From Gemmatimonadota bacterium (GTDB lineage Bacteria; Gemmatimonadota; Gemmatimonadetes; Gemmatimonadales; Gemmatimonadaceae): a DNA stretch of 38,303 bases. This document shows positions 17,637 to 22,245 of the stretch, piece after piece. A program made the translations under genes and the position numbers. The notes beneath the pieces are model-generated. The model had not been told where the DNA came from. It did no database searches and worked only from the letters and a program-made list of their open reading frames with translations. How positions within the stretch are numbered: the first letter of the stretch is position 1; the number at the start of each line of letters is the position of its first letter. The stretch is from contig QHVE01000045.1 in NCBI GenBank assembly GCA_003223455.1, positions 1 to 38,303 on the forward strand, read 5' to 3'.

Positions 17637-20600
17637 ATGCGTCTTCAACGTACGAATCGCGCTTTCCTGGCGCGGCTGACCTCGGTCGGCGCCGTCGGAA
17701 TGCTGACGGCACTCGCCTGTCAGTCGGTACCGGTGCCCGAGCCCGCTCCGGCACCCGCTGCCTCGTCCTCCTCCACTCCGGTCCGCGCGCTCGTTTCGGT
17801 GCCGGTGCCGCCGTTCACGCCCACGACGGTGCGGCTGTCGCCGGATTCGGCAACGAAGCTGAGCCAGGCCGGACGCGCAGCGGTGTCCGCCCCGCTTGCG
17901 TCGGGGCTCGAGCTGAGCCTGTGGGCGCCCGAGGGAATGGTCGCCGACCCGATCGGCATCTCGTTCGACGACCGCGGGCGGTTGTACGTGACGCAGACCG
18001 CGCGCACCGACCGCGACGAGATCGACATTCGCGGCCATCAGGACTGGATGGTCTCGTCGATCACGTTCAAGGACATCGAGGACAAGCGCGCCTTCTATCA
18101 GCGCGTGCTCGCGCCGGAGAACAGCGCGAAGAACCAGTGGCTGAAGGACTGGAACGGCGACGGCTCGCGCGACTGGAAGGACCTCACCTTCCACAAGGAA
18201 AAGCTCTGGCGGCTGGAGGACACGAACGGCGACGGCGTGGCGGATCAATCGCAGCTCGTGCTCGAGGACTTCAACGACCTCGTGAGCGACGTGCTGCACG
18301 ACGTGCTCGCGTACAAGAACGACGTGTACGTCACCATCTCGCCCGACCTCTGGCGGCTGAAGGACACGAACAACGACGGCGTGTTCGACGCGAAGGAATC
18401 GCTGTCGCACGGCTCGGGGGTCCACATCGGCTTCGGCGGTCACGGCCACTCGAGCCCTCTCGTGGGACCCGACGGCCGGCTGTACTGGAAGCAGGGTGAT
18501 CTCGGCGTGAACATCACGACGCGTGAGGGCCGGCACCTGTCGAACCCGAACAGCGGCGTGATCCTGCGCGCGAACCTCGACGGCACGGAGGAGGAGATCT
18601 TCGCGCGAGGGCTGCGCAATCCGCAGGACTTCGACTTCGACGAGTACGGCAACCTGATCTCGCCCGACAACGACGGCGATCATCCCGGCGAGACGGAGCG
18701 CGTCGTCTACATCGTCGACGGCATGGACAGCGGCTGGCGGATCAACTGGCAGTTCGGGAAGTACGTCGATCCGGACAACAACACGTACAAGGTCTGGATG
18801 GAAGAGAGCATGTTCAAGCCGCGCTTCCCGGGTCAGGCAGCGTGGTTCACCCCTCCCATCGCGGCGTGGCACTCCGGACCATCGGGATTCCATCACAATC
18901 CCGGCACCGCGCTGAACGACCGGTGGAAGGGCTACTTCTTCAACTCGGTGTTCACGGGCGCGCCGGCTCGCGCGAGCATCCAGGCGTTCAAGGTGGCGCC
19001 GCAGGGTGCGGGCTTCCGCGTCACGGACGACACCGCGGTGGTGCAGAACCTTCTCGTTACGGGCGTGCGGTTCGGACCCGATGGCGCGCTCTATCTCGCC
19101 GACTGGATCGAGGGTTGGGAGCCGAAGGACCGCGGGCGCATCTGGAAGGTCGACGTTCCCGCCGCCGCGGCGAACCCGCTGCGCGCCGAGACGAAGACGT
19201 TGATCGCCGCGGACTTCAAGGCGAAGTCGATCGCCGAGCTGAGCGCGCTCCTCCGCCACGCGGACATGCGCGTGCGCACGAAGGCGCAGTTCGAGCTCGT
19301 CGACCGTGGTGCCTCGGCGGAGTTGCTCGCCGCGACGAAGCAGACCGACAATCAGCTCGCGCGCATTCACGGCATGTGGGGCATCGGCCAGCTCGCGCGC
19401 AGGGATTCGCGGCAGGCCGCCGCGCTCGTTCCATTGCTGAAGGATGGCGACGCCGAGATCCGCGCTCAGGCAGCGAAGCTGCTTGGCGATGTCCGGTACG
19501 GCGCGGCCGCGCCGGCGATCGTGCCGATGCTGCGTGATGCCTCGCCGCGGGTGCGCTTCTTCGCCGCCGAGGCGCTCGGCCGCGACGCCTACCGGCCGGC
19601 GTTCCAGCCGATCGTGGAGATGCTGGCGGCCAACAACGAGGAGGACGTCTACCTCCGTCACGCCGGCGCGCTGGCGCTCTCGCGCATCGGACCGGCCGCT
19701 GCGATCGCGAGCCTGGCGACGAATCCCAACCGTGCCGTACGGATCGCGGCGGTCGTCGCGCTGCGCCGGTTGAAGGACGCTGGCGTCGCGCCCTTCCTCG
19801 CCGATCAGGACGAGTACATCGCCACCGAGGCGGCACGCGCCATCAACGACGATGGTGGCATCACTGCCGCGCTGCCGCAGCTCGCCGCGGCGCTCGAGAG
19901 CAAGGTCACGAACGAGCCGTTCGTGCGCCGTGCGCTCAACGCCAATCTGCGCGTCGGTACCGCCGACGCCGCACGCCGCGTCGCGGCGTACGCCGGCGGT
20001 AGCGCGGGCAACGACGAGATGCGCGCCGAGGCGATCTCGGTGCTCGGCGTGTGGCCGAAGCCGTCCGTCCTCGATCGCGTCGATGGCACGGCGATCGGCC
20101 CGATGGAGCGCGACTCGGCCATCGCGCGCGCGGCAATCGCCACGCTCGTGCAGCCGATCTTCGCCAGCGGCAGCACCGCGCTGCAGGTCGCACTCGCGGA
20201 TGCCGTCGGTCGGCTGCGCGTGATGGAAGCCGGCCCGATACTCCTCACCAAGCTCCAGTCGTCTCCGGCGACGGAGATCCGCATCGCCGCGCTGCGTGCG
20301 CTCGTCGCCATGCGGCACGAGCGCGTGGCCGAGGCGGTGCGCGGCGCGCTGCAGGACAAGGAGCCCACGGTGCGCATGGCGGCGCTCACGGCCATTCCGG
20401 GACTACACCTGCCCGAAGCCACGACTGCCGAGCTGCTGTCGTCGGTGATCGGCAAGGGGTCGATCGCCGAGCAGCAGTCGGCGCTCCAAGCGATGGGCGA
20501 GGTGCCCGGCGCGACGGGCCGCGAAGCGATGACGCGTCTCGTCGAGCAGCTCGAGCAGGGAAAGCTGGCTCCCGAGATCCAGCTCGACGTCGCCGAGGCC

Positions 20601-21116
20601 GCGCGCGCGTCGAAGGATCCGGCGCTCGTCGCTCGGCTCGACAAGCTGGCGGGCCGGCCCGGCGCGAAGCCCGTCGAGCTGTATGCGGATGCACTCCATG
20701 GCGGCGACGCGCGGCGCGGGGCCCGCGTCGTGTTCCAGGCACCCGCTGCCCAGTGCACACGCTGTCACAGCTTCGGCGGTCCGGGCGCCAACGTCGGGCC
20801 GAACCTGTCGGGGGTCGCGTCGCGGCTCCAGCGCGAACAGCTGCTCGAGGCCCTCGTCGATCCGAGTGCGCGCATCTCGCCAGGCTACGGCCCCGTACAG
20901 CTCACGCTCAAGAACGGAAAGAAGCTGTTCGGCACGCTCAAGGACGAGACCCCGACGCACGTCGTGGTCGATGCCGGTGGCGATCAGCGCGTGCCGAAGT
21001 CCGACATCGCGCAGCGCGTCAACGGTCCGTCGGCGATGCCGCCGATGGGCAGCCTGTTGACACGCCGCGAGATCCGCGACGTCGTGGAGTATCTGAGCAC
21101 GCTCAAGGCGCCCTGA
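17637..21116 (+). CDS. Large lipoprotein: dehydrogenase-like propeller, HEAT repeats and cytochrome c domain
   Basis: A 1159-residue protein with the architecture of the Planctomycetes-type membrane-bound dehydrogenases (DUF7133-like). It has a lipoprotein signal ending LTALAC (C28) and a Pro-rich linker. A beta-propeller of about 400 residues follows, with WxxNxDGxxD-like acidic loops (DTNGDGVAD, DTNNDGVFD) that may bind calcium and the signature NPQDFDFDEYGNL. Next come many HEAT-like helical repeats (about 520-980), and a C-terminal cytochrome c domain with CTRCH at 1040-1044 and a probable methionine ligand in SAMPPMGSLLT. It should sit in the periplasm, tethered to a membrane, and pass electrons from an oxidised substrate (perhaps a sugar, by analogy) to the haem. 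The gene stands alone and is the last on the plus strand before a convergent inverted repeat. Confidence 0.88.
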   Translation: MRLQRTNRAFLARLTSVGAVGMLTALACQSVPVPEPAPAPAASSSSTPVRALVSVPVPPFTPTTVRLSPDSATKLSQAGRAAVSAPLASGLELSLWAPEGMVADPIGISFDDRGRLYVTQTARTDRDEIDIRGHQDWMVSSITFKDIEDKRAFYQRVLAPENSAKNQWLKDWNGDGSRDWKDLTFHKEKLWRLEDTNGDGVADQSQLVLEDFNDLVSDVLHDVLAYKNDVYVTISPDLWRLKDTNNDGVFDAKESLSHGSGVHIGFGGHGHSSPLVGPDGRLYWKQGDLGVNITTREGRHLSNPNSGVILRANLDGTEEEIFARGLRNPQDFDFDEYGNLISPDNDGDHPGETERVVYIVDGMDSGWRINWQFGKYVDPDNNTYKVWMEESMFKPRFPGQAAWFTPPIAAWHSGPSGFHHNPGTALNDRWKGYFFNSVFTGAPARASIQAFKVAPQGAGFRVTDDTAVVQNLLVTGVRFGPDGALYLADWIEGWEPKDRGRIWKVDVPAAAANPLRAETKTLIAADFKAKSIAELSALLRHADMRVRTKAQFELVDRGASAELLAATKQTDNQLARIHGMWGIGQLARRDSRQAAALVPLLKDGDAEIRAQAAKLLGDVRYGAAAPAIVPMLRDASPRVRFFAAEALGRDAYRPAFQPIVEMLAANNEEDVYLRHAGALALSRIGPAAAIASLATNPNRAVRIAAVVALRRLKDAGVAPFLADQDEYIATEAARAINDDGGITAALPQLAAALESKVTNEPFVRRALNANLRVGTADAARRVAAYAGGSAGNDEMRAEAISVLGVWPKPSVLDRVDGTAIGPMERDSAIARAAIATLVQPIFASGSTALQVALADAVGRLRVMEAGPILLTKLQSSPATEIRIAALRALVAMRHERVAEAVRGALQDKEPTVRMAALTAIPGLHLPEATTAELLSSVIGKGSIAEQQSALQAMGEVPGATGREAMTRLVEQLEQGKLAPEIQLDVAEAARASKDPALVARLDKLAGRPGAKPVELYADALHGGDARRGARVVFQAPAAQCTRCHSFGGPGANVGPNLSGVASRLQREQLLEALVDPSARISPGYGPVQLTLKNGKKLFGTLKDETPTHVVVDAGGDQRVPKSDIAQRVNGPSAMPPMGSLLTRREIRDVVEYLSTLKAP

Positions 21117-21140
21117 GGTTCCTTACGACGTCGAACGACC

Positions 21141-21219
21141 GTCATCCCGAGCGAGCGTAGCGAGTCGAGGGATCTGTACTTGTTGAGAGTACAGATCCCT
21201 CGACTTCGCTCGGGATGAC
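21141..21219. repeat. Long inverted repeat between convergent genes, with bulged arm
   Basis: The left arm (21141-21180) and right arm (21188-21219) pair over 14 plus 18 bases without a mismatch, around a seven-base loop (21181-21187). The left arm carries eight extra bases (GCGTAGCG, 21155-21162) that would bulge out. The element lies 24 bases after the stop of the large lipoprotein gene and 67 bases before the end of the convergent DUF4406 gene. It could act as a two-way transcription terminator or be one copy of a dispersed palindromic element. There is no T-run typical of an intrinsic terminator. Confidence 0.9.
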
Positions 21220-21229
21220 AGGTCCCGGG

Positions 21230-21252
21230 CTCTCGATTTCGCTCGGGATCAC
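21230..21252. repeat. Degenerate extra copy of the inverted-repeat arm
   Basis: A 23-base stretch matches 20 of 23 bases of the right-arm segment that ends at 21219 (CTCTCGATTTCGCTCGGGAT against CCCTCGACTTCGCTCGGGAT). It shares the orientation of the right arm. A shorter echo (GGATCCCTCGAA) follows near 21259. These look like decayed copies produced by local duplication of the same element. Confidence 0.7.
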
Positions 21253-21286
21253 GGGTGCGGATCCCTCGAACGGGGCGCCGTTCTCA

Positions 21287-21655
21287 TCAGGCACAGCCCG
21301 GCACTTCGGAGAGCGCGTGATAGACGGCGAGGCCGCGTACCCGCGCGAGCTCCACCATGTGATCGGCGCCGTGCGAAGGGCCCCCGACGCGCAGCACCGC
21401 GTCGCACCGCATGAGCAGTCGGATGGCGATCGGATGGAAGATCTCCTCGAACGCCGCGTCGCCGACGCGGCGCGAGCCCGCCAGCCCGACGAGCGGCAGC
21501 GCGAGCCACTCCCCGACGACCGGGATGTGCCCTGCCCGAAAGAGCGGCAGGGCGCAACTCTCCATCGCGTGCACGTTCGCCGCCATCTTCTCGGGGTCGT
21601 CGTTCGTGCCGGAGCGATAGGGTCCGGCGATGAGGATCATCAGGGAAGTGGTCAT
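21287..21655 (-). CDS. DUF4406 protein (nucleoside deoxyribosyltransferase-like fold)
   Basis: A 122-residue cytoplasmic protein that begins MTTSLMILIAGPYRSG. This strand-plus-loop is typical of the nucleoside 2-deoxyribosyltransferase-like DUF4406 group, followed by GHIPVVGEWLALPL, RLLMRCDAVLRVGGPSHGAD and ARVRGLAVY. Family members are short, single-domain and mostly uncharacterised; related folds cleave N-glycosidic bonds of nucleosides. Its ATG overlaps the stop of the upstream channel gene (ATGA at 21652-21655), so translation is coupled. Function in this context is unknown. The gene ends close to the convergent inverted repeat. Confidence 0.82.
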   Translation of the reverse strand: MTTSLMILIAGPYRSGTNDDPEKMAANVHAMESCALPLFRAGHIPVVGEWLALPLVGLAGSRRVGDAAFEEIFHPIAIRLLMRCDAVLRVGGPSHGADHMVELARVRGLAVYHALSEVPGCA

Positions 21656-22245
21656 GGTTCCGTGGGATGTTGCGCCGCGAGCACCCGCTCGATGCGCTTG
21701 TCGGGGACGAGCCAGATCAGCGCGACGGTGGCGTACAGCGCGCCGGACAGTCCCGGGTGCACGAAGGCGGCGAACACCGCGAGCAGGTAGAGGACGGGCG
21801 AGAGCCTTCCCTTCTTGTCCTGGCCGACCGCTGCGGCGAGGATGGAGCCCGGTCCCTGACTCCGGATGATCGTCTGCTGCAGCACGTAGTACGAGATGGC
21901 GCAGGCAAGCAGCACGGCGCCATACACCGAGGTCGGCACGGCGGCGAAGTGCGTCTCGCCCATCCATGCCGTCGTGAACGGCGTGAGCGAGAGCCAGAAC
22001 AGCAGATGCAGGTTGGCCCAGAGAATTCCGCCCGTCACGCGCCGCGTGAGATGCAGCATGTGATGGTGGTTGTTCCAGTAGATCCCCAGATACACGAAGC
22101 TCATCACGTAGCTGGTGATCACGGGCCAGAGCGGTCCCAGCGCCGCCCACGTCGGCTCATGCGGGGGGCGCAGCTCGAGCACCATGATCGTGATGATGAT
22201 CGCGATCACACCGTCGCTGAACGCCTCGACACGATTGGGCGTCAT
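21652..22245 (-). CDS. TMEM175-family (DUF1211) potassium channel-like membrane protein
   Basis: A 197-residue integral membrane protein. The first helix carries the family signature R5-x-x-x-F9-S-D-G (RVEAFSDGVIAI), which defines bacterial TMEM175 channels. About six hydrophobic segments follow, including YVMSFVYLGIYWNNHHHMLH, another hallmark with histidines after the third helix. Known bacterial members form tetrameric potassium channels lacking the usual TVGYG filter. Length and topology fit a complete protein. The last four bases overlap the start of the DUF4406 gene. It lies 96 bases downstream of the TonB-receptor-like gene on the same strand, so the three may be co-transcribed. Confidence 0.92.
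   Translation of the reverse strand: MTPNRVEAFSDGVIAIIITIMVLELRPPHEPTWAALGPLWPVITSYVMSFVYLGIYWNNHHHMLHLTRRVTGGILWANLHLLFWLSLTPFTTAWMGETHFAAVPTSVYGAVLLACAISYYVLQQTIIRSQGPGSILAAAVGQDKKGRLSPVLYLLAVFAAFVHPGLSGALYATVALIWLVPDKRIERVLAAQHPTEP

Follow-up and report, generated by a model that had tools for sequence, protein, structure and literature searches.

REPINs comprise two inverted REPs and a spacer. In the GTAG REP/BIME system of E. coli, which is associated with the transposase TnpA-REP (RAYT), the repeats are short tagged imperfect palindromes with a conserved internal mismatch, and BIMEs join y with z1 or z2 REPs, unit types of unequal length in inverted pairs (PMC8266576). A further kind, the CGTC-tagged REPs, was surveyed in 2013; in the passages cited from that survey these repeats are reported from five phyla, with an extragenic bias and without an associated transposase, and display (i) an unpaired CGTC or TGTC tag, CCTC also being allowed, (ii) AT as the opening two bases of the stem, (iii) a stem of 8-9 bp, (iv) a loop of 4-5 nt and a CCA-like tail, and (v) heterodimers whose units differ in loop or stem, for which loss of close perfect palindromes has also been proposed (Di Nocera et al. 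2013, PMC3733652).

The window, the whole stretch of 38,303 nucleotides analysed here (contig QHVE01000045.1, Gemmatimonadota bacterium), contains at 21141-21269 a related repeat. By size, number and place it is a REP, being a palindrome of 20-40 bp with many dispersed copies, mostly extragenic. The window pair resembles a REPIN in comprising two inverted REPs with a spacer; unlike in REPINs, most units of this type have no inverted partner, and no cognate RAYT was found. With the GTAG REP/RAYT system the repeat shares the short tagged imperfect palindrome, the conserved internal mismatch and unit types of unequal length in inverted pairs, but the tag is GTC and the RAYT of the same genome has another repeat (PMC8266576). 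The nearest known kind is the CGTC-tagged REPs, with which the repeat has in common the unpaired tag, the AT at the first stem positions, the extragenic bias, the occurrence in several phyla without an associated transposase, and the heterodimers; it differs in that a tandem G-A mismatch breaks the stem, in loop and tail, and in its presence in more phyla than the five printed (PMC3733652). Since the tag and first stem bases match those REPs whereas the stem, loop and tail as printed do not, the window repeat is a variant of them. The reading we prefer, at a probability of roughly 70%, is that of a mobile-type REP heterodimer with a CGTC-style tag, kept imperfect because close perfect palindromes get lost.

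Architecture and surroundings of the window locus

The inverted repeat comprises two sets of fully paired arms, 21141-21154 with 21206-21219 (14/14) and 21163-21180 with 21188-21205 (18/18), and eight unpaired bases, GCGTAGCG, at 21155-21162 of the left arm only; a direct copy at 21232-21254 is identical to 21199-21221 at 20/23 positions (own count). The 32 paired bases, the one-sided excess and the direct arm copy are thus as the original prediction had described them. The inverted repeat is a facing pair, long and short, of units of a dispersed palindrome, followed by a decayed third copy. Unit 1, of the long form (39 nt), occupies 21141-21179 on the minus strand and matches R1, a covariance model from 18 units, at 48.6 bits; the underlying alignment, A1, omits seven of the 25 extracted units, five of them duplicates and two outliers. 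The CGTC tag of unit 1, read off the sequence at 21140-21143 (plus strand), is unpaired in that unit's own hairpin, and within the eight extra bases (21155-21162, plus strand) the long form's inner GNA mini-hairpin, GCGTAGC, occupies 21155-21161. A 9-nt spacer in model coordinates (21180-21188), whose first and last bases prolong the arm pairing, leads to unit 2, of the short form (31 nt; 21189-21219, plus strand; R1 match of 53.6 bits), with a TGTC tag read off at 21217-21220 on the minus strand. Unit 3 (21232-21254, plus strand) is decayed, only its tag-side half being recognisable, and is absent from the R1 matches, and a further, truncated unit at 21255-21269 on the same strand retains the tail-side half only, with 87% identity to 21189-21203 over 15 positions.

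The whole structure folds far better than expected from its composition, the RNA fold of 21135-21265 having a z of -8.5 and the DNA folds of the two strands of 21139-21221 z values of -11.3 and -13.2, each better than 200/200 dinucleotide shuffles. For a single unit, nearest-neighbour DNA energies come to only about -2 to -3 kcal/mol and do not surpass those of shuffled sequences. An Rfam scan of the window gave no match at gathering score, and hence no known RNA family.

Two genes converge on the pair, their ends (21116 and 21287, home-made gene calls) enclosing 170 bases. The gene at 17637-21116 (plus strand), which ends 24 bases before unit 1 and whose start the home-made caller sets at 17799, encodes a PVC-type haem-binding CxxCH/HEAT-repeat/cytochrome c protein; its product scores 117.6 with the PVC-type N-terminal model, below the cut-off of 122.2, and 91.9 with the C-terminal haem domain (cut-off 68.15). 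The convergent neighbour was called by the same means at 21287-21640 on the minus strand, and its reading at 21290-21658 yielded zero matches in Pfam and NCBIfam. A TMEM175-type potassium channel gene (PF06736) is located at 21652-22245.

A dispersed, mostly intergenic hairpin

The units form a conserved small hairpin that is dispersed, mostly intergenic and patchily distributed. The 14-base arm, TCGCTCGGGATGAC, occurs at 53 places in the 4.96 Mb own assembly with up to one mismatch, compared with three for the reversed control, and R1 finds at least 39 matches, which bears out the suggestion of a dispersed palindromic element; model-search counts here and below are lower bounds, up to 150 candidates being scored per genome and up to 44 in the phylum survey. 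Among same-genus genomes the distribution is patchy at E 0.1, with at least 135 matches in genome G007, at least 20 and at least 10 in two others, seven weak ones in a fourth, and none in 5/10. At least 22 of 150 genomes of the phylum, own genome included, have matches. An exact pattern of the unit is carried by at least 119 stretches from named genomes, holding 280 units, 144 of them distinct, and the 80 listed pattern-bearing records span at least 14 phyla, as read from record titles. Multiple copies were found in each of the 22 named genomes tested (4 to at least 150 matches), among them the same-genus G050 (locus L092, record JAEKKK01, Gemmatimonadetes bacterium isolate SH_69_11). Literature searches with strings of the motif returned only unrelated papers, judged by titles and abstract openings, and among the matches listed for Gemmatimonadetes with repeats none named the phylum.

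The hairpin comprises the C/TGTC tag, an ATNNN/NNNAT stem of 5 bp, a conserved tandem G-A mismatch and then 1-2 bp, including a G-C pair. The 119 stretches were picked by exact pattern, which favours conserved positions such as the base before GTC (C in 55 and T in 194 of 280 units, 249/280 together), the first stem pairs (A-T in 128/144, T-A in 134/144) and the tandem G-A mismatches (139/144 and 138/144); this choice leaves the compensated changes unexplained. These number 105 over four pairs, the three of the middle stem and the G-C above the mismatch, against 23 one-sided and three non-pairing double changes in the 144 distinct units, with cells of G-T type and of C-A type at eight each (own sum). 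The C11-G1 pair considered for the short form has no covariation support, with 129 conserved, 10 one-sided, one compensated and four non-pairing cases.

The long form contains an additional inner mini-hairpin, a heptamer NN-GNA-NN in 41 of the 55 distinct inner sequences of 9 or 11 bases, Watson-Crick paired at outer and inner pairs alike in 50/55, and in our reading of the sequences it would correspond to the short form with a GA-GC module on each side. The long form has a 3-nt loop, mostly GNA, and in the short form the G-C pair encloses about 6 nt. GNA loops are known in extraordinarily stable DNA mini-hairpins (Yoshizawa 1997, cited in PMC6479982). Past the stem, a C followed by TGCAC is present in 14/25 own units, and no CCA tail is among the 12 commonest tails of the 280 units.

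The position of copies relative to gene ends was counted for 25 sites, a subset of the 39 units, with the home-made gene caller: 17 are intergenic, seven lie inside called genes and one is at a contig edge, coding sequence making up 87% of the positions of these loci. Nine of the 25 fall between convergent gene ends, a setting that covers 2% of the same sequence, and four between divergent genes.

Close inverted pairs are almost always non-identical

Two lengths predominate among the units: 31 nt, which accounts for 18 of the 39 own-genome matches and 29 of the 135 in G007, and 39 nt, which accounts for 12 and 86. The '8-base bulge' of the window is therefore the long form minus the short form; the extra bases are real, but the insertion event postulated for them is ruled out, both unit lengths being common in the family. 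If matches of up to 33 nt are classed as short and those of at least 36 nt as long (the latter including a few odd partners of 41, 45 and 77 nt), every inverted pair within 150 bases combines the two classes, in 7/7 cases in the own genome and 13/13 in G007 (permutation p 0.039 and 0.001); of the 14 direct pairs, 10 are short/short, three mixed and one long/long. These 20 inverted pairs involve a minority of the 174 units of the two genomes, most units having no inverted partner within 150 bases. Thirteen of the pairs have tags inward and seven outward; the outward arrangement of the window pair is the rarer one in the own genome (1/7) and in G007 (6/13), and the common one in named genomes of other groups (81/88 pairs).

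These 88 inverted pairs, a second set from 116 of the 119 named-genome loci (L092, L095 and L097, from a same-genus genome, were omitted here and kept in the covariation count), highlight the role of distance. At spacers of up to 20 bases, measured from the shorter cores in this set and from unit ends in the own genome and G007, 11 pairs are long/short and three same-length, compared with 28 and 44 at longer spacers (p 0.008); pooled over all spacers, long/short pairs are not in excess in other phyla (39 versus 47 same-length, two unclassed). Identical unit cores follow the same trend, with 0/14 pairs at spacers of up to 20 bases, 1/57 at 21-60 and 4/17 above 60. Close perfect pairs do occur, if rarely: the L048 pair is perfect at a core spacer of 22, and its arms extend to 36 bases around an 18-base spacer. 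The few same-length pairs and few identical cores at short spacing fit a loss of close perfect palindromes, and the spacer-dependent scarcity of identical arms provides a natural experiment on the palindrome closeness that bacteria tolerate.

Direct arrays in G007 (C42:2865-2969, C54:2374-2478 and C247:55-175), spaced by about 37 bases for short or 45 for long units, suggest local amplification. In a related genus, G017:C262:15510-16236 displays an array of longer units, 51 nt on the plus and 45 nt on the minus strand.

Inheritance, mobilisation and competing explanations

A G007 stretch is apparently syntenic with the window, its downstream gene having 73% identity and its upstream gene being recognised by its last bases only, at a contig end. 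A single decayed long unit persists there and carries the GTACA variant, which is found in 2/25 own units, both of the window pair, and in 1/44 G007 units. As GTACA is private to both window arms and to this decayed unit, a unit has apparently been present at the locus for some time, so that the recent copying read from the perfect pairing holds in part only. Elsewhere, an orthologous long/short pair is present in the own genome and G007, with a stem change compensated in place (L174 versus L248), and G007 lacks a unit of the own genome immediately past a conserved hairpin, with divergence on the far side, which makes a one-sided empty site (L168 versus L214); copies are thus partly old and partly gained or lost.

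A search for a REP-type transposase, proposed with the original prediction, found one in the own genome, a Y1 match to NCBIfam REP_Tyr_transpos at 80.1 bits (cut-off 80; L031, 1335-2368), but its link to the window repeat is ruled out: direct and inverted copies of a different repeat, GGGGTCAGACTCCTTGAAAA, flank it, and L031 has no R1 match. Among 35 Y1 loci (33 distinct), a subset of all Y1 matches, none is flanked on both sides by the window-type repeat and two contain a unit; in one of them the adjacent transposase has different inverted repeats of its own, and in the other the unit is a weak match. Genomes G018 and G023 (100% and 98% complete) have at least 53 and at least 22 repeat matches and no Y1 match, and 10 of the 22 repeat-bearing named genomes, two of them Bifidobacterium strains, likewise gave no Y1 transposase match; one such genome is that of Bifidobacterium aquikefiri, with at least 116 repeat matches. 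No transposase is among the 25 most shared of 223 families built from 139 proteins neighbouring 25 own and 30 G007 loci, redundant neighbours being dropped and single occurrences not excluded. The Y1-locus and neighbour-protein searches thus found no mobilising enzyme for the repeat, and the later papers listed, judged by titles and abstract openings, name none for CGTC-type repeats.

Under the preferred heterodimer reading, units would spread in the form of single-stranded DNA hairpins, on which an enzyme encoded elsewhere acts, inverted pairs would arise via local duplication or insertion, and close perfect palindromes would be cut or deleted by an SbcCD-type loss, leaving mainly imperfect pairs; the 8-base bulge would then allow the window pair to persist. 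An SbcD-like protein of the own genome scores 60.9, below the curated cut-off of 77.65. For the presumed palindrome loss, the main alternative is that short-read assembly loses close perfect palindromes. A different account, which we consider doubtful, makes the long/short dimer itself the mobile entity, its distinct ends being recognised by the enzyme as in REPINs or BIME y-z pairs, so that heterodimers reflect recognition. The exclusively long/short inverted pairs of the own genome and G007 speak for it, as does the joining of y with z1 or z2 REPs in E. coli (PMC8266576), but most units are unpartnered, both orientations occur within the genus, and same-length pairs make up 44/72 elsewhere at spacers above 20 bases.

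That the repeat acts as RNA, as a bidirectional terminator or 3'-end stabiliser of two convergent transcripts, is improbable. The convergent setting of the window copy, the enrichment of such sites and the large RNA hairpin agree with this idea; a search for intrinsic terminators (G+C stem then T-run) in 20900-21500, however, gave no site, the copies inside called genes and between divergent genes do not suit it, the equal G-T and C-A cells lack the one-strand wobble bias expected of RNA, and next to its unit the syntenic-looking G007 stretch contains a distinct GC hairpin with a terminal TTT. The terminator foreseen for the locus is therefore rejected as its main role, and a secondary effect on the 3' ends of flanking transcripts is possible. 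The dRS3 repeats of Neisseria serve as phage integration site. They constitute one CGTC-1 family (PMC3733652), which favours a view of the repeat as a site targeted, or left behind, by a known insertion sequence or phage integrase; this is very unlikely, as the window copy has no IS-size insert, none of the 35 Y1 loci is flanked on both sides, and a 36-base short-unit query at E 1 matched none of 50,697 phage and 72,556 plasmid records. Fourteen IMG/VR stretches match the repeat.

The survey, in the passages cited, left CGTC-type repeats without a mobilising enzyme (PMC3733652), and a near-exact pattern across many phyla narrows the search. Given that this pattern occurs whether or not a genome has Y1 transposases, what is recognised is probably the G-A/GNA DNA hairpin, and the enzyme is probably encoded away from the repeat. 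More tentatively, one single-stranded DNA hairpin, with a GTC tag, a tandem G-A mismatch and a stackable GNA mini-hairpin module, may be common to much of the bacterial domain, where a host enzyme unlinked to the repeat would spread or maintain it, the number of modules giving the long and short forms that pair when close.

A separate element sits at gene ends in the own genome and G007, in which tandem GAGTTGGT-like repeats precede a GC hairpin of the form AACGGCCTCGGGA...TCCCGAGGCCGTT or close to it, as in L168 (about 1430-1500), L181 (reverse) and L214.
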